Positions 4,281 to 23,053 of a stretch of DNA of 64,000 nucleotides are shown piece after piece. The notes beneath the pieces are model-generated. The model was not told the DNA's origin. It saw only the letters and a list, made by a program, of their open reading frames with translations, and made no database searches. This DNA is from Parasporobacterium sp. (GTDB taxonomy: Bacteria; Bacillota; Clostridia; Lachnospirales; Lachnospiraceae). The DNA lies in the NCBI GenBank assembly GCA_017459985.1, contig JAFUBX010000036.1:1-64000 (forward strand), in the 5' to 3' direction. Position 1 is the first letter of the stretch; the number at the start of each line of letters is the position of its first letter. A program made the translations under genes and the position numbers.

Positions 4281-4309
4281 TTGAAAACATATCGTATTCC
4301 ATGACAGCA

Positions 4310-4470
4310 CTCCGCCTGACCAGGCGACAGTCCAACGGATCTTCTCCGAAGTCCCAGTAAAGTACATATGCAGGAACACATATACTCCCTTCGGCGGCTT
4401 CCCCTTTCGTTCTCCGGATTCCTGTCCGTTCATGAAGAACTACTGATGTCGGCCGCAACCTCTATCGTGG
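4310..4470 (-). promoter_or_regulatory. lysine riboswitch (L-box)
   Basis: The minus strand shows the L-box signature in order: GATAGAGGTTGCGG, an AGTAGTTC segment, GAAAGGGGAAGCCGCCGAAG, ACTGGGACTTCGGAG, and the closing GTTGGACTGTC. This is the conserved core of the lysine aptamer, known to end transcription when lysine is bound. It lies between the promoter at 4475-4503 and the terminator at 4249-4280. Exact P1 ends are approximate. Confidence 0.93.
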
Positions 4471-4474
4471 TAAG

Positions 4475-13925: not shown

Positions 13926-16283
13926 TCAGTTCCGGGCTTCTTCCGGAGCCGGTCCTTCCGGGGACTCACCCTCCGGGGATTCTCCTTCCGGGGATTCTCC
14001 TTCGGCAGACTCACCCTCCGGGGCCTGACCTTCTTCCGACTCACCTTCCGGAGCCGGCGCATCGGCTGATTCTCCGCCGCCGCTTTCACCACCGGAGCTT
14101 TCCGGTTCCACATAATGCAGTTCGGATACGGTTCCGTATACACCGGCTTCGATTGCTTCTTCGCCGGCTGCCACGGTGATCGTTCCATTTTCATTTTCCA
14201 TAATGGTTCCGAGAACGGTGCTGCCCTCCTCAATGGTAAGGCTGTTCAGGATACTTTCTCCTGCCACGTTCCAGGTGGATCCGTTCGTTACAGACAGATT
14301 GATCTGTGCCAGTCCGTTATAGGCCGGTGTGTTCATAACGCGGCGTCCTGCATGGAAATCATAGGTGTTTTCATCGGTTCCTTCCATTCCGTCACCGGTC
14401 TTATTGAAGTAGAACAGACCTTCGATCGGATTGCCCTCTTCATCCACATGCTGCGCATAGGAGGTGGAAACAACGCCTGTCAAAACTGCATTGTCCAGTG
14501 ACACATTGACCAGGGATGCATTCCAGTCGGAGAGAATATTGGTGGTTCCGTCGTAGGATTCGGATACATGCTTGTTGTTGCTGGATCCGACAGAGTTATA
14601 GATATCTCCCTCCAGTTCGGAATTGGCAATGCGGACCGTTTTGGTGGTTCCGTCCGCAGCAGACTCGATGGTCTGGTACTCTTCATAGGTCAGATCCAGA
14701 ACATCCATTTCCATGTCATTTGCGCCGGTACCGGTATCATCGGTATCCATAAACTGGAACAGCGTTCCGCTCCAGGGATTCTCCCCATACAGACGTACCC
14801 GGACATCATCCAGTGTAATATCCACTGCACCGGTAGACATGACGCTGAACAACGAATCCGACACTTCGAAATCGGAATGGCTCAGGACTGCTGTATAGGC
14901 ATTGCCGTGGCTCATGAATCCGATCCGGTCAGAAGCGCCGTAACCTCTCTGGGTCTCTGATTCCGTAAAATCAAAGGTGCCGCCTGTCAGGATCGCGATA
15001 TAATCAGGCGCAATGAAGGTACATCCGTAGAAATTGTCATCAAATCCGTCGCAGTAGGTGACATAGCCTGTGCCTTCCGAAGTATCATAAGCATGGAAGA
15101 AATAATCTTTTCCTGCAATATTCACACCGCCGTTGGCATGCTCTTCATCGGTCAGTTCCCCGATCAGCGCGACGGTATCCGTTGCATTCAGTGTGCCGTT
15201 TCCGGAGTCTGTGGAAAGAACGGCCCAGATATCGCTGACTGCCAGACAGTTATCAAAACTCAGGGTGGCGGATCCGTAGCAGATGCAGCCTCTCATGCTG
15301 CCATGCAGGCCCAGGGCCAGCGGTACACACTGCAGCATCGGTGCTGAGAAATTGCTGGTGTAATCATCATTATAATAGTAATAATGGGTTCCGGATCCAA
15401 ACATGCTCTCATAATCTTCTGCATAGAATTCTCCGGAAATGCCGTAGTCTGCGATTTCTTCCTCCGTCAGAGGCGCCTCGGTAATGATAAACCGGTCATA
15501 GGTATAGGGCTCAAATGCATATGCCTCCGCTTCTTCCCGGGCGGACACAACGGTATCCCGGACATTGACCACAGAGCTTCCGCCGGCCCAGATGCCGTCA
15601 TGCAGCGGGCCTTCCGTATTGATCACGACATTGTCGATATCCGCTTCCGCGGTTCCCGCTATGGAAATAACGGTTCCCCAGCCGCCTTTGGTTCCGAAGT
15701 CATTGCCGCCGAGACCTTTGGAATTCAGGGTCACATCCGAGATCTGCGTATGGGCACCTGTTTCATTATAAACATAGATCCCGCTGATGTAATCCGCGTC
15801 AATGTCGATCTCGCCTCCGGTGATCCCTTCATCCGTGATCTGGGCATCATGAACCGCTGCCGGAACAGACTTCTCTTCCGCATAGGCCCCATCCTCAAAG
15901 GTTACCGCGCCGGTAAAGTAGAACGGTCCCCAATTAGCGGTATTCATGGACATCATGACTTCATCGTACTGTCCTTTGTCAATGACAAACAGCTGGGCAT
16001 CTTCCGTCCAGTTCTCCGGATCATCCAGGTCCACGATGGCCCCATCCTTTACCAGGATGAAGGTCTGCATTTCCGGATCGATTGTCTGTTCGGTTCCGTC
16101 GGAGAAGGTTACGGTTTCATACTGACTGTACAGAGAAGAATCCACATAATTGGCCGATTCTTCGCTCAGGACGATCCCTGTGATCACAGGAACTTCCTGC
16201 GGAGCTGCCATTGCAGAAACAGCCATGACACCTGTCATAGCTGTTGCCGCAAGAACAGCTGAAAACATTTTGAATCTTTTCAT
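13926..16283 (-). CDS. large secreted beta-helix-like protein with C-terminal PEGES tail
   Basis: 785 residues from the ATG at 16283, which has GGAAGGGAG 6 bases upstream; an upstream in-frame ATG would place the signal peptide internally. Parts: Sec signal peptide (about 1-27, ending AMAA), about 680 residues of Asn/Thr/Ser/Gly/Asp-rich repeats resembling a right-handed beta-helix, then a C-terminal low-complexity tail of PEGES/APEGE units. It is a homologue of the 5401-7587 protein (shared WAVLSTDSG, IGFMSHGN, TWNVAGES, LTGVVS), but with the PEGES block at the opposite end. No sortase signal or membrane anchor seen. Function unknown; a surface or released adhesin-like role is inference. Confidence 0.85.
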   Translation of the reverse strand: MKRFKMFSAVLAATAMTGVMAVSAMAAPQEVPVITGIVLSEESANYVDSSLYSQYETVTFSDGTEQTIDPEMQTFILVKDGAIVDLDDPENWTEDAQLFVIDKGQYDEVMMSMNTANWGPFYFTGAVTFEDGAYAEEKSVPAAVHDAQITDEGITGGEIDIDADYISGIYVYNETGAHTQISDVTLNSKGLGGNDFGTKGGWGTVISIAGTAEADIDNVVINTEGPLHDGIWAGGSSVVNVRDTVVSAREEAEAYAFEPYTYDRFIITEAPLTEEEIADYGISGEFYAEDYESMFGSGTHYYYYNDDYTSNFSAPMLQCVPLALGLHGSMRGCICYGSATLSFDNCLAVSDIWAVLSTDSGNGTLNATDTVALIGELTDEEHANGGVNIAGKDYFFHAYDTSEGTGYVTYCDGFDDNFYGCTFIAPDYIAILTGGTFDFTESETQRGYGASDRIGFMSHGNAYTAVLSHSDFEVSDSLFSVMSTGAVDITLDDVRVRLYGENPWSGTLFQFMDTDDTGTGANDMEMDVLDLTYEEYQTIESAADGTTKTVRIANSELEGDIYNSVGSSNNKHVSESYDGTTNILSDWNASLVNVSLDNAVLTGVVSTSYAQHVDEEGNPIEGLFYFNKTGDGMEGTDENTYDFHAGRRVMNTPAYNGLAQINLSVTNGSTWNVAGESILNSLTIEEGSTVLGTIMENENGTITVAAGEEAIEAGVYGTVSELHYVEPESSGGESGGGESADAPAPEGESEEGQAPEGESAEGESPEGESPEGESPEGPAPEEARN

Positions 16284-16378
16284 ACTGTTCTCCCTTCCAT
16301 ATAATTTTGTGAACAAATGTAAAACTGATGATAATACTGTATCACATTTCTCCGGCAGAATCTATTTCCGGAAAGCAG

Positions 16379-16437: not shown

Positions 16438-19044
16438 TTAATGAGTTTCCAGATATTTCTCCCTCAGGTCCGCCTGCAGCCGTTCCAGATACGCCTGAAA
16501 TTCCCGGGATGAGATCAGCATACAGCCCTGCCCTCTGGTAATAACCTGTTCCAGGCTGTCTGAAGTCACCACCAGGATTTTCTGCTTTTTCCCGTTTTCG
16601 TTGGTAAACTTCTCAATATACTGATCTGCTGTTTCCTCTTCTGCGGTATAGACGATCCGGATATTCTGGAGGGTCTGCTGTTCTGTGGCATGCCCCTTTA
16701 CCCGGTAGGCATCAAATACCGCGATCACCTCTGCGCTGATCATCGACCGGAAATTACTCAGGATCTCAATCAGCGCGTCCCTGGCAGAATCGATATTCAC
16801 CCTTGCCAGATCGCTAAGTTCCTTCCAGGCAAAGATCACATTGTATCCGTCCACCAGCACATACTCCGCTTCCTCCGGCGGGAACACCCGGGATTCTCCG
16901 GAGTTGGGGCTGACAGCCCCCGGAGCGGACAGCGGTTCTCTGGTTCCGAAGGTCTTCTTCCAGTTCTTCCCCGTCTTTTTCTCTTTGCTGTTGGAGCGTG
17001 AGATCCTGGAAATGATCTCATCCACCTCTTCGGTTCCCAGATGGATCTCCTTTGGGGAAGTACCCGAAAGCTCCGCTTTCAAGGTCCCCTCTTCCGACAG
17101 TTCCCGGGAAGGATTCTTAAAATCAGGAATCTCCATATACTGATCCACCTGGTCATAGGGGACAATGATCCCGGAGCCATGGGCGCAGAACACCGAATCC
17201 GCGGGATTTTTAAGGTCTGCTGCCGGATCATAGCCTTTCCTCCGAATCACCTCTTCCGCATTGCGGCAGAGGTCATATCCGTCATTGATCAGACGGATCC
17301 GGCCCTGTCCTTTGGTGTATGCCGCGATCTGGGATGCATAATCCTTCAGCGAAGACACCGGCCCCCTTCCCCGGATCACGCAGGTTTTCCCGGCCATATC
17401 CTGTTCCGGGAGGGAAAATCCGGCCTCCATCCGGTCGAGATCCGTCATGGCCCGCCCCACTGCGGAAGCGGGAATCTCCAGAACAAACCGGTAATAAGGT
17501 TCCAGAAGGAGATTTTCCGCTTTCATGAGTCCCTGCCGGACGGCCCGGTAGACCGCCTGCCGGAAATCCCCTCCTTCCGTATGTTTCAGATGAGCCTTGC
17601 CTCCGATCAGAACGATCTTCATGTCTGTGACGGGTGCTCCGGTCAGAACGCCTCTGTGCTGCCGTTCTCCCAGATGGGTCAGGATCAGCCTCTGCCAGTT
17701 CCGGGACAGAACATCACTGCTCAGTTCGCTTTCGAACACAAGGCCGGATCCCCGGGGAGCCGGTTCCATCCGCAGATGCACCTCCGCAAAATGACGCAGC
17801 GGCTCGAAATGACCGGATCCGATCACCGGCGAGGCGATGGTCTCCCGGTACATAACTTCCCCGTTATCAAAGTCCGTTTCCAGAGAAAACCGCTCTTTCA
17901 GCAAGGTTTTCAGAATTTCCAGCTGTACTTCTCCCATGACGCAGACATGGATCTCCTGCCGGTCTTCTTCCCAGGAGACGGATAGTTCCGGATTTTCCTC
18001 CTCCAGAGTACGGAACCAGGGAAGCACTTTCACGGCATCCTGCTCCGGCGGCAGTACCGCCCGGTAACTCAGGATCGGAGCCAGCAGCGGCAGGAATGAT
18101 TCAGATTCTGTCCCGAATCCCTGCCCGGCACAGCTTTCCTTCAGTCCCGTCACTCCGCAGATCTCCCCCGCGAAGGCCTCGTCCCTCAGGGTAAACCGTC
18201 CTCCGTTATAGATCCGGATCTGATTGATCTTGGAGGATTCCTGGCCGTCGGGAAGAACCGATTTGTTGGGCAGGGACCCGCCGGTGATCTTCATCATGGT
18301 CACTCTGCTGCCATCCGGATCCCGGATGATCTTGAAGACCCGGGCCCCGAATTCCGGCGGGTATTCTGTCTGCAGGGTCAGCCGGTCCAGAAGTTCCAGA
18401 AACTCCCTGACGCCTTCCATCTTCAGCGCAGAGCCGAAGCACCCCGGAAACAGCTTCCGCTCTTTTATCATGGACCGGAGCCGGTCATCCGTCAGACTTC
18501 CGGTACTCAGATATTCCTCCATGGCTTCTTCGGTGCACATGGCGGCCTGATCATACAGCTCCTGCGGATCCCGGGCCGAAAAATCCACCAGTTCGGAGGC
18601 CAGCACGGTCCGGAAGGTGTTTCTCAGGAGCACCGGATCTGCCCCATCCTGATCCATTTTGTTGAAAAAGACAAATACCGGGATCCGGTATTCTTCCAGC
18701 AGACGCCACAGCATCTCCGTCTGACCTTTGATCCCGTCCGCCGCGCTGATCAGGAGCACCGCATAATCAAGGACCTGAAGGGAACGCTCCATCTCCGCGG
18801 AGAAATCCGCATGCCCCGGAGTATCAATCAGAATGAACTCGGTATTCCCGAAGGTGAAACGGGCCTGCTTAGAGTAGATCGTGATTCCTCTCCGGCGCTC
18901 CAGATCGTGATCATCCAAAAAAGAAGCACCCTTATCGACCCGGCCGAAACTCCGGATGGTGCCGGTCAGGTATAACAGTGCTTCTGATAATGTGGTTTTT
19001 CCGGAATCTACATGGGCAACGATGCCGATCGTAATCTTCTTCAC
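16438..19044 (-). CDS. TetM/EF-G-like ribosomal GTPase fused to a Rae1/YacP-type NYN nuclease domain
   Basis: 868 residues, start GTG with AGGA 7 bases upstream. Residues 1 to about 650 are a translational GTPase of the ribosomal-protection (TetM) type: G1 AHVDSGKTT (10-18), switch I RRRGITI (50-56), G3 DTPGH (74-78), G4 NKMD (128-131), then EF-G-like domains II-V. A charged Ser/Lys/Pro linker (about 670-725) leads to a NYN domain (727-868) that matches B. subtilis Rae1/YacP closely: VLVDGYNVIFAW, VFDAYRVKG, EEETADQYIEK, VVTSDSLEQ. Rae1 is known to cut mRNA in the ribosomal A site. The fusion would therefore bring a nuclease to the site a TetM-like factor occupies. It is last in a co-directional run with DUF711, ACT protein, ahcY, prfA and prmC. 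Whether it gives tetracycline protection, rescues stalled ribosomes or both is unknown. Confidence 0.92.
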   Translation of the reverse strand: MKKITIGIVAHVDSGKTTLSEALLYLTGTIRSFGRVDKGASFLDDHDLERRRGITIYSKQARFTFGNTEFILIDTPGHADFSAEMERSLQVLDYAVLLISAADGIKGQTEMLWRLLEEYRIPVFVFFNKMDQDGADPVLLRNTFRTVLASELVDFSARDPQELYDQAAMCTEEAMEEYLSTGSLTDDRLRSMIKERKLFPGCFGSALKMEGVREFLELLDRLTLQTEYPPEFGARVFKIIRDPDGSRVTMMKITGGSLPNKSVLPDGQESSKINQIRIYNGGRFTLRDEAFAGEICGVTGLKESCAGQGFGTESESFLPLLAPILSYRAVLPPEQDAVKVLPWFRTLEEENPELSVSWEEDRQEIHVCVMGEVQLEILKTLLKERFSLETDFDNGEVMYRETIASPVIGSGHFEPLRHFAEVHLRMEPAPRGSGLVFESELSSDVLSRNWQRLILTHLGERQHRGVLTGAPVTDMKIVLIGGKAHLKHTEGGDFRQAVYRAVRQGLMKAENLLLEPYYRFVLEIPASAVGRAMTDLDRMEAGFSLPEQDMAGKTCVIRGRGPVSSLKDYASQIAAYTKGQGRIRLINDGYDLCRNAEEVIRRKGYDPAADLKNPADSVFCAHGSGIIVPYDQVDQYMEIPDFKNPSRELSEEGTLKAELSGTSPKEIHLGTEEVDEIISRISRSNSKEKKTGKNWKKTFGTREPLSAPGAVSPNSGESRVFPPEEAEYVLVDGYNVIFAWKELSDLARVNIDSARDALIEILSNFRSMISAEVIAVFDAYRVKGHATEQQTLQNIRIVYTAEEETADQYIEKFTNENGKKQKILVVTSDSLEQVITRGQGCMLISSREFQAYLERLQADLREKYLETH

Positions 19045-19056
19045 GTCATTTTCCTG

Positions 19057-20415
19057 TCAGTTTTTCAGGCTGTGCATCGGAGCCGGGATCCTGCCGCCCC
19101 GGGCAATAAATTCCGCGCTGGATTCTTTATGAACATCCATGACGGGAGCGTCTCCCAGAAGGCCTCCCATACGGATCGTATCCCCCACTGCTGTTCCCGG
19201 AGTCGGAAGGATTCTGACCGCGGTTGTCTTGTTATTTACCATTCCGACTGCAGCTTCATCTGCAATGATGGCGGAGATGGTTTCCGCCGGAGTATCTCCC
19301 GGAACCGCAATCATATCCAGTCCCACGGAGCAGACACAGGTCATGGCCTCCAGTTTGTCGATACACAGCGTCCCGGACCTGGCAGCCGCGATCATTCCTT
19401 CATCTTCCGATACCGGAATAAAAGCGCCGGACAGTCCTCCCACGGAAGACGACGCCATCACGCCGCCCTTTTTCACGGCATCATTCAGCAGAGCCAGCGC
19501 GGCCGTGGTTCCATGGGTCCCGCAGACCTGAAGTCCCATTTCTTCCAGGATCCGGGCTACGGAATCACCAATCGCCGGGGTCGGCGCCAGGGACAGATCC
19601 ACGATTCCGAAGGGAGTGTTCAGTCTTGCGGACGCCTCTTGGGCAACCAGCTGGCCCACCCGGGTCACCCGGAACGCGGTCTTCTTGATCGTCTCCGCCA
19701 CTTCATCCAGCGGGGCGCCCTTCAGCTCCTTCAAGGCGTTATGCACGACACCCGGACCTGATACGCCCACATTGATCACCTTTTCCGGTTCCCCGGTCCC
19801 ATGAAAAGCTCCTGCCATAAACGGATTGTCCTCTACTGCGTTGCAGAACACCACCAGTTTGGCACAGCCGATTCCGTCCTGTTCCCTGGTCTTCCAGGCT
19901 GTTTCCTTTATCACCTGTCCCATCAGCCGGACCGCGTCCATATTGATGCCGGACCGGGTAGATCCCACATTTACGGAAGAACATACCAGCTGAGTCGAAG
20001 AAAGCGCTTCCGGGATGGACCGGATCAGATTCTGATCCGCCTCGGTCATTCCCTTCTGCACCAGGGCGGAAAATCCTCCGATAAAATTCACGCCGCAGGT
20101 TCTGGCGGCTTCATCCAGGGCTTTGGCGATGGGGGTATAATCCGTGCTTTTGCAGGCAGCTCCAACCAGAGCGGCCGGAGTAACGGAGATCCGTTTATTC
20201 ACGATGGGGATTCCAAGCTCGATCTCGATCTCCTCACAAACCGGAACCAGATGCTCCGCATACCTGCAGATCTTGTCATAGATCTTGCTGCAGGCGCTGT
20301 TTATATCCTCATCGCAGCAGCTCAGCAGGGAGATCCCCATGGTAACGGTACGGATATCCAGATGCTGCTGTTCGATCATCTGGATCGTTGATAAGATATC
20401 CTTCTGATTGATCAT
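19057..20415 (-). CDS. DUF711 (UPF0210) family protein
   Basis: 452 residues, full length for DUF711/UPF0210. The family has a solved fold but no agreed reaction. Conserved glycine-rich segments are visible: [50 protein letters not shown] and the late [20 protein letters not shown]. It follows the ACT-domain gene by 35 bases, the pairing found in many Firmicutes (as in the pneumococcal SP0238-SP0239 pair), so the two probably work together. AGGAAGAGG-type site before ATG. Next gene is the GTPase-NYN fusion, 12 bases on. Confidence 0.92.
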
Positions 20416-20739: not shown

Positions 20740-21981
20740 TCATTCTTTGCCATATAGATAGATCCGCTGTTCCCCGGTAAGCGTATCGATCTTCCGCCCC
20801 ATCATGGAGAGCTTGCGCTCTGCCACCACAGCGTCGATCTCCTCCGGGACCGGGATCAGTTTTTCCGTCAGCTGATGAGCCTGTTCCGCCAGATATTTGA
20901 TGGAAAGGAACTGGATCGCAAAGCTCATATCCATGATCTCCGCAGGATGTCCGTCTCCTGCCGCCAGATTCACCAGACGTCCCTCCGCCAGTACATACAG
21001 CCATCTGCCGTCCGGCATCTCATAGCCCATGATATTCTTCCGCATCTCCCGGCTTTGGACTGCATTCCTTCGCAGATACTCCACGTCCACTTCCACGTCG
21101 AAATGGCCGGCATTGCAAAGGACCGCCCCGTCTTTCATCCGGGCAAAGGCCGCCTCCGAGATCACCTTATTGCAGCCGGTGACCGTAATAAACAGGTCTC
21201 CGATCTGAGCCGCCTCTTCCATGGGCATCACATCAAATCCGTCCATGACCGCCTCGATCGCCTTGACCGGATCGATCTCCGTTATGATAACCCGGGCTCC
21301 GAGTCCCTTGGCTCTCATGGCGCATCCCTTTCCGCACCAGCCATAGCCTGACACGACGACACTTTTGCCCGCCACGATCAGATTGGTGGTCCGGTTGATC
21401 CCGTCAAACACCGACTGTCCCGTTCCATAGCGGTTATCAAAGAAATGTTTGCATTTGGCGTCATTGACCATGATCATCGGAAACTGCAGCGTTCCCTGGG
21501 TTTCCATGGCCCTGAGTCTTAAGATCCCGGTGGTGGTCTCTTCGCAGCCTCCCAGAACATAGGGAATCTCTTCCGGCATCTGGGTATGCAGCATATGCAC
21601 CAGGTCTCCGCCGTCGTCCAGAATGATCTGGCAGTGATGCCGGAGGACTTCACGGATGTTGTCGTCATACTCCTGCGCGGAGCAGTCATACCAGGCAAAT
21701 ACTTCGATCCCGTCCTTTACCAGCGCGGCCGCCACATCATCCTGTGTGGACAGCGGATTGGACCCGGTGACGTAAAGCACTGCGCCGGCATCCCGCAGAG
21801 TCTGGCATAACAGGGCTGTCTTGGCTTCCAGATGGATCGAGACCGCGATCCGGACCCCTTCCAGAGGTTTCGTATCCCGGTACTCCTCCCGCAGGGATTT
21901 CAGCAGCGGGCAGTTTCTGCGGACCCACTCAATCTTCTGTTCCCCGCCCGGCGCCAGGCGGATATCTTTGATCCGGCTCAT
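20740..21981 (-). CDS. ahcY: adenosylhomocysteinase (S-adenosylhomocysteine hydrolase)
   Basis: 413 residues from the ATG at 21981, placed one base after the prfA stop with a GGAGGG site inside the end of prfA; an upstream frame extension overlaps prfA and lacks homology. It splits S-adenosylhomocysteine to adenosine and homocysteine with bound NAD+. Conserved segments: SIHLEAKTALL, NDAKCKHFFDNRYGTGQS, VVVSGYGWCGKGCAMRAKGLG (NAD loop), AGHFDVEVD and the C-terminal EEIDAVVAERKL. It lacks the insert of eukaryotic enzymes, as in shorter bacterial/archaeal forms. Its position after the RF1 methyltransferase gene is suggestive because that enzyme makes SAH. Confidence 0.93.
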   Translation of the reverse strand: MSRIKDIRLAPGGEQKIEWVRRNCPLLKSLREEYRDTKPLEGVRIAVSIHLEAKTALLCQTLRDAGAVLYVTGSNPLSTQDDVAAALVKDGIEVFAWYDCSAQEYDDNIREVLRHHCQIILDDGGDLVHMLHTQMPEEIPYVLGGCEETTTGILRLRAMETQGTLQFPMIMVNDAKCKHFFDNRYGTGQSVFDGINRTTNLIVAGKSVVVSGYGWCGKGCAMRAKGLGARVIITEIDPVKAIEAVMDGFDVMPMEEAAQIGDLFITVTGCNKVISEAAFARMKDGAVLCNAGHFDVEVDVEYLRRNAVQSREMRKNIMGYEMPDGRWLYVLAEGRLVNLAAGDGHPAEIMDMSFAIQFLSIKYLAEQAHQLTEKLIPVPEEIDAVVAERKLSMMGRKIDTLTGEQRIYLYGKE

Positions 21982-21982
21982 C

Positions 21983-23053
21983 TCAGCCCTCCTGTGCAGA
22001 CAGTTTCGCTGCCTGGTCTGCTGCGATATCATTCTCGATCAGTTCAAACAGATCGCCGTCCATGATGTTGGCAAGCCGGTAGGAGGTGAACTTGATCCGG
22101 TGATCCGTAACCCGGTTTTCCGGGAAATTATAGGTTTTGATCTTCTCTGACCGGTCCCCGGTTCCCACCTGACTTCTTCGCTGGGCCGCCTCGGCTGCCT
22201 GTTTCTTCTGCAATTCCAGATCGTAAAGTCTGGATTTCAGGACTTTCAGGGCCTTGTCTTTGTTTTTCAGCTGGGATTTCTCATCCTGACAGGAGATCAC
22301 GATCCCGGTGGGGATATGGGTCAGACGCACCGCAGAGTCTGTGGTATTGACGCACTGCCCGCCGTTCCCAGATGCCCGGAACACGTCGAATTTGCAGTCA
22401 TTCATATCGATCTCCACATCCACATCCTCTGCTTCCGGCATGACTGCCACCGTTGCGGTGGAGGTATGAATCCGGCCGCCGGATTCCGTGACCGGCACCC
22501 GCTGCACCCGGTGTACGCCGCTTTCGTATTTCAGTTTGGAGTAAGCGCCCTGACCGTTGACCATGAACACCACTTCCTTCATGCCCCCCAGGCCCATTTC
22601 GTTGTAGGAGACCAGTTCTGTCTTCCAGCCGTTCAGCTCCGAAAATCTGCAGTACATCCGGTACAGTTCCGCGGCAAATAACGCGGCTTCGTCCCCGCCG
22701 GCTCCTGCCCGGATCTCCATGACCACATTTTTGTCATCATTCTCATCCTTGGGAAGCAGCTGGATCTTCAGCGTCTCTTCGATGGCCTCCAGTTCCTTCT
22801 TGGCCTGTGCAAGTTCTTCCTTGGCCAGTTCCTTCATCTCCTCGTCGCTCTCCGTATCCAGGATCTCCAGGCTCTCATCAATGGTCTGCTTTGCTTTTTT
22901 ATATTTCCGGTAGCTCTCCACGATCGGAGCCAGGTCGCTTTGTTCCTTCATCAGTTTTCTGAATCTGTTCTGATCGCTGGCAACATCAGCGCCGGAAAGC
23001 TCCTTCAGCACTTCGTTATATCGTTCTTCAATTGATTCCAGTTTATCAAACAT
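21983..23053 (-). CDS. prfA: peptide chain release factor 1
   Basis: 356 residues, standard RF1 length. It terminates translation at UAG and UAA. The catalytic GGQ is in [19 protein letters not shown], and the anticodon-like region precedes it ([21 protein letters not shown] is the conserved run before GGQ). The N-terminal coiled-coil region is intact. It overlaps prmC by 8 bases; PrmC methylates the glutamine of this GGQ. It is followed almost without gap by ahcY. Confidence 0.97.

Follow-up and report, generated by a model that had tools for sequence, protein, structure and literature searches.

A Tet-like translational GTPase fused to a Rae1/YacP-type NYN nuclease domain in Parasporobacterium sp. 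and related Lachnospiraceae

The window examined here, a stretch of 64,000 nucleotides of Parasporobacterium sp. (GenBank assembly GCA_017459985.1, contig JAFUBX010000036.1, positions 1 to 64,000), includes a gene on the minus strand, at 16438..19044, whose 868 aa product joins a translational GTPase related to the tetracycline-resistance (Tet) proteins to a C-terminal NYN endoribonuclease domain of the Rae1/YacP type. The product most likely functions as an mRNA nuclease directed to ribosomes. The chances appear about even that the protein is, more specifically, the Rae1 of this lineage, an A-site mRNA endonuclease whose recruitment has passed to a Tet-like translational GTPase. The basis for this is the fusion itself, intact motifs in both halves, conservation, the lack of a stand-alone NYN gene in genomes that carry the fusion, and an empty locus where that gene would formerly have been.

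Intact motifs in both halves of a single frame

The frame begins with GTG at 19044, preceded by AGGA 7 nt ahead, ends with a stop codon at 16440-16438 and contains no internal stops. The GTP-binding domain (GTP_EFTU, residues 4-222, 18379..19035, Pfam E 1.3e-49) is followed by EF-G domain II (residues 232-304, 18133..18351) and domain III (residues 333-392, 17869..18048), which at 26.3 and 26.5 bits, respectively, lie slightly below the 27-bit Pfam cut-offs, and then by domain IV (EFG_IV, residues 395-510, 17515..17862, E 3.9e-19) and domain V (EFG_C, residues 513-595, 17260..17508, E 4.1e-15). A C-terminal extension (residues 596-638, 17131..17259), recognised by the sequence SVFCxHG...YM and by alignment of the structural model with TetM, is where unfused relatives terminate, or soon beyond. 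Here it leads into a linker (residues 639-727, 16864..17130) and the NYN domain (residues 728-868, 16441..16863), in which the Pfam NYN_YacP match covers residues 729-866 (E 5.8e-45). Full-length fusions at five named loci elsewhere are 60-70 % identical, others are 48-66 % identical across the GTPase part and, hence, the fusion is not a frame accident.

The motifs expected of each half are present. In the GTPase these are AHVDSGKTT, RGITI, DTPGH, NKMD and GSALK, and K16, T17, D74, P76, G77, H78, N128, K129 and D131 are invariant in all 70 fused proteins compared. With motifs G1-G5, EF-G domains II-V (II and III marginally under cut-off) and a fold match over residues 1-608, this half belongs to the EF2 family. 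The NYN half belongs to the Rae1/YacP family, scoring 153.7 bits against a curated cut-off of 24.6, and aligns to Bacillus subtilis YacP (5MQ8/5MQ9) with E 6e-23 and with all of the aspartates in VDGYN, VFDA, ETAD and TSD matched; this fold was compared by sequence rather than structure, since the VIA-align rows took in the GTPase only. D732, N735, D778, D807, E811 and D829 are invariant in 70/70 fused and 32/32 stand-alone sequences, and the conserved acidic residues among them (D732, D778, D807, E811, D829) include those we take to be catalytic. The initial annotation of the window, which described an intact EF-G/TetM-class GTPase and a Rae1-type NYN domain in one protein and would have counted as refuted had the NYN aspartates not lined up with the catalytic residues of Rae1, is thus borne out in its coordinates, domains and active-site residues.

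Distribution and the stand-alone gene

The fusion was sought in samples of 299 genomes from the family, 148 from the class and 149 from the phylum, with an NYN domain scored as fused when it lay in a frame of at least 690 aa and the frames read by hand. In the family, where the initial annotation had suggested that the survey be made, NYN_YacP was found in 264 of the 299 genomes, 243 of them with the fusion, 13 with a clear stand-alone gene and eight unclear. Of the unclear genomes, seven (G095, G256, G128, G140, G151, G098 and G229) have frames broken at contig ends or shorter than 690 aa, and the eighth, G042, has a split gene, the GTPase and NYN lying side by side as two neighbouring frames (C93:5567-8198, minus strand) through either fission or a frameshift. 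The GTPase part (E up to 1e-45) was found in 261 of the 299 genomes; both halves were present in 260, NYN alone in four, the GTPase alone in one and neither in 34. In the class, 98/148 genomes include NYN (51 fused, 45 stand-alone and two unclear) and, in the phylum, 86/149 match it, 10 of these with the fusion.

No complete stand-alone NYN gene was seen in any genome that carries the fusion. Six of these genomes with second NYN matches were rechecked. Three (G278, G076 and G431) hold only sub-threshold pieces and one (G173) has pieces on two contigs; the remaining two are considered below. The cysS-mrnC-rlmB stretch lacks an NYN gene in all ten fused genomes inspected (that of the window and nine others), with sigH following nearby in eight and not found in G000 and G247. 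At three loci with a stand-alone gene (L175, L177 and L178) NYN comes after rlmB. The fused NYN is therefore not at the position typical of Rae1/YacP, though location does not define the enzyme. As the fusion replaces the stand-alone gene, the fused NYN would do the job of the former stand-alone enzyme.

What that job is can be read in more than one way. PMC6613710 describes yacO (rlmB family) and rae1 of B. subtilis as co-transcribed neighbours that act in a single genetic pathway, and Atkinson 2015 (PMC4342817) cites a proposed role of YacP in rRNA/tRNA maturation and names rRNA RNase activity as worth testing. Both fit a nuclease for rRNA or tRNA maturation or quality control that the GTPase brings to ribosomes. 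However, later work on Rae1 indicates mRNA in the A site as the target (PMC6613710, PMC12320835), and we regard a maturation or quality control role as highly improbable.

Phylogenetic analysis favours a single fusion event, onto a GTPase clade distinct from Tet(M/O/S). In a tree of 92 GTPase rows, for which SH-aLRT is the only support measure and the program flagged long branches, the 70 fused and 15 unfused proteins form one clade (SH-aLRT 100) apart from tet(M/O/S). Within this clade all fused rows fall together (SH-aLRT 72), and an unfused protein of Ligilactobacillus salivarius joins them at 99, the other unfused rows lying outside. In the NYN tree (102 rows), 69 of the 70 fused domains group with nine stand-alone domains from the family, weakly (72), and the remaining 23 stand-alone domains are separate (96), with L153 as an odd row.

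Several points weigh against the fusion protein being the Rae1 of this lineage. Rae1 functions in B. subtilis without a GTPase partner of this sort. One fused genome (G154) has an equal-scoring NYN copy on a second contig and another (G039) has a second NYN piece, in a 139 aa frame, at a contig edge, while one stand-alone NYN gene (L176) lies away from cysS-rlmB. The fused clade in the GTPase tree is supported by just 72 % SH-aLRT, and the NYN tree requires two changes, again with weak support. Finally, outside the fusion the NYN domain and the unfused GTPase are unassociated in the class sample: both occur in three genomes, NYN only in 42, the GTPase only in four and neither in 46 (p 1.0, ignoring kinship among the genomes), where G426, in which a contig end has probably truncated a fusion, is placed under neither, G433 and G348 are omitted as unclear, and the more distant Tet-like relatives in G441, G346 and G412 are not counted as clade members.

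The two halves can, therefore, live apart, and the unfused GTPase has its own role, because, among the unfused GTPases at L159-L166, those of four class genomes (G326, G331, G359 and G375) occur without any NYN. In the family sample the two are associated (both nine, NYN only four, GTPase only zero, neither 34; p 5e-7, again ignoring kinship, with the GTPase of G029 counted from its best E-value alone that of G099 a short copy with a stop within the match, and a match in G213, E 4e-70, taken as canonical Tet). The idea that NYN and the unfused GTPase work as partners in trans was set aside, as the class sample shows no such association.

The GTPase half, the linker and a possible mechanism

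The initial annotation took the GTPase to be specifically TetM-like, and this part of it does not hold. Domain IV loop III (residues 485-495, HLKHTEGGDFR, 17560..17592, minus strand; Tet(M/O/S) counterpart YYSPVSTPADFR), the loop that in TetM reaches into the tetracycline site, is not of the Tet type, with KHTEGGDFR here versus YYSPVSTPADF in Tet(M/O/S). It is invariant in its own way, as K487, H488, T489, G491, G492, D493, F494 and R495 are identical in 70/70 fused proteins, and K487 and H488 are kept in 14/15 and 15/15 unfused relatives, respectively. TetM P509, which is located in the tetracycline site according to PMC8161019, aligns with K487 in all 70 fused proteins. The general Tet profile of NCBIfam (NF012153, cut-off 775 bits) is the best-scoring family for the window protein, which at 386 bits reaches half of the cut-off, whereas the positive controls tet(M) and tet(O) pass at 877 and 851 bits. 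Two other fusions score 444 and 405 bits and three unfused relatives 387, 442 and 377 bits. Because loop III differs, the score is half of the Tet cut-off and the clade lies apart from Tet(M/O/S), TetM is a label at the level of the fold, and tetracycline protection is, on sequence grounds, unsupported.

A protein protecting against tetracycline or another drug, with the RNase activity adding to resistance as Atkinson 2015 suggests, has still to be weighed. The best-scoring profile and the match of the predicted model to the TetM fold over residues 1-632 (residue 632 reaching TetM residue 639) both agree with it. In addition, the triple S508A/P509A/V510A mutant of Tet(M) can remain active provided that the shape of the loop is kept, as reported in PMC4750697 and, hence, the sequence of loop III is no proof on its own and its difference weakens the case for drug protection without excluding it. 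However, EF-G structures match the model better than TetM does by Z score, the fusion is chromosomal and family-wide rather than sporadic, and three of the 51 fused class genomes (G207, G332 and G345) hold a separate Tet relative at the canonical level. Together with the loop and the profile score, these points make a drug-protection role improbable.

The linker bears on how the halves work together. The AlphaFold model used was built with 27 sequences and has a mean pLDDT of 77.9; an earlier model (six sequences, mean pLDDT 48) was discarded along with its fold search. Predicted confidence falls below 50 at residues 639-719, in the linker, and at 613-625, in the C-terminal extension, and, apart from a helix predicted over the short stretch 672-681, the linker is disordered. 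Its start could be placed in 58 of the 70 fused proteins, and in these it ranges in length over 38-117 residues, with a median of 80. A helix motif resembling EELxxIFxRTY recurs in 53 of the 70 by a strict pattern, as against 0.3 % of shuffled linkers, these being taken from residue 640 and not 600.

A long, disordered linker is what would be expected if NYN did the work of Rae1 alone and the GTPase were a mere anchor, or had a separate EF-G-like role in translocation or splitting, with its GTP cycle uncoupled from cutting. The occurrence of the halves on their own in the class (stand-alone NYN without the GTPase in 42/45 genomes and the unfused GTPase without NYN in 4/7) also favours this reading, but the recurrence of the helix motif and the fact that the halves, once fused, stay joined, with long frames in 243 of 264 NYN-bearing family genomes, tell against it, and we hold it to be possible though doubtful.

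If the fusion protein is instead a GTPase-recruited Rae1, the following steps can be envisaged; we infer their order and outcome, as we do the binding to ribosomes, the A site as target and any GTP control of cutting. In its GTP form the protein would bind ribosomes whose factor-binding site and A site are accessible, as they are in stalled ribosomes, and domain IV, whose loop III is invariant among the fused proteins, would probe the decoding centre. Tethered by a flexible stretch of approximately 80 residues, the C-terminal NYN domain would cut mRNA in or beside the A site, and GTP hydrolysis would free the factor from the ribosome. Tet-type GTPases occupy the same A site (PMC8161019). Since one A site should not have room for both domain IV and a docked Rae1, cutting would probably come after the GTPase body leaves, or on a neighbouring ribosome, and the flexible linker would permit either. 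The outcome would be free mRNA ends that allow decay of the message and rescue of the ribosome.

The initial annotation had likewise proposed a factor that recognises a blocked ribosome and either cuts its mRNA or protects and then resets the ribosome; of this we retain the mRNA nuclease and drop the TetM-type protection. A more elaborate version, in which the GTPase acts as a sensor and fills the A site left empty on a stalled ribosome, and the tethered NYN cuts mRNA at a collided neighbour or just after a hand-over at the same site, seems rather unlikely. Such a protein would be a surveillance nuclease gated by GTP within a single chain, and we know of no bacterial example of this mechanism.

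Should the Rae1 reading be correct, the ribosome-associated mRNA nuclease of a large family of gut bacteria would be under GTP control, and the genes labelled as encoding tetracycline resistance proteins, such as that of the unfused L. salivarius relative, would include factors whose sequences do not support that role. The fusion would then be a natural construct for studying the admission of a nuclease to the A site, and resistance counts from gut metagenomes would need correction.

Gene neighbourhood and related systems

The fusion gene is separated by 12 nt from the stop codon of a DUF711 gene immediately upstream (19057..20415, minus strand), which is context and not a conserved partner. 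As the initial annotation noted, prmC, prfA, AdoHcyase, ACT and DUF711 genes are co-directional with it, and a link to termination or rescue was drawn from them; the DUF1385 gene that precedes them is co-directional as well. An operon link via prmC/prfA was rejected on synteny, as the DUF1385-DUF711 block occurs in three of the 26 fused loci compared (L022, L025 and, in part, L023, where the contig begins there), all from near kin. The genes of the block are absent from the other 23, two of which have a weak MATE-like match only, and within five ORFs no further neighbour family is common to at least three of the 26. The fusion gene seems to function independently of its neighbours. No fused frame was found on phage among 80 viral-contig loci (80 kept of 109 related ones), and a PADLOC defence scan gave one marginal ThsB match (E 0.0065). 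Also in the window, on the minus strand, are a 430 aa AdoHcyase homologue (20740-22032) directly before the ACT and DUF711 genes, a trio that stays together in near kin, a 796 aa protein (13926-16316) with a signal-like N-terminus, C-terminal PEGES-like repeats and no Pfam match at 1e-3, and a lysine riboswitch (4297-4472, 81.8 bits).

The architecture is not new, and the expectation in the initial annotation that such fusions would be found in databases was correct. Atkinson 2015 noted Tet proteins carrying an NYN domain similar to YacP in ten clostridial species and proposed RNase-linked resistance, and these have the same architecture as the window protein. The family, class and phylum counts, the loss of the stand-alone gene, the separate GTPase clade and the non-Tet loop III appear to go beyond that paper. 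Literature searches found no functional study of the fusion, and Condon 2018, on Rae1 distribution, may already mention it. The fusion is of a described but unstudied kind, and what is new is the evidence about the gene that it has replaced and the evidence that speaks against calling it Tet. The Monoglobus homologue is named "translation factor GTPase family protein" by NCBI.

Among known systems, B. subtilis Rae1/YacP shares the NYN domain and its aligned acidic residues, but is a stand-alone protein encoded after an rlmB homologue, whereas here NYN forms the C-terminal end of a GTPase. Tet(M) and Tet(O) (3j9y, 4v6v) have the domain order, fold and G motifs in common with the window protein and a C-terminal extension at the same place. 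They are ~31 % identical to it, differ from it in loops I and III, pass the Tet cut-off that it falls below, and have neither its linker nor its nuclease. The unfused Tet-like GTPases of Clostridia and of L. salivarius (WP_069469564.1) are in the same clade and have a near-identical loop III but, unlike the window protein, lack the linker and NYN. The L. salivarius plasmid pA17A (L179, 4980-6914) encodes an unfused clade member annotated as TetM/TetW/TetO/TetS family at 377 bits versus the cut-off of 775, and this label may be wrong. Compared with EF-G, proteins resembling which are encoded elsewhere in the same genome, the window protein largely lacks the G' insert, differs at the domain IV tips and has gained the NYN domain.
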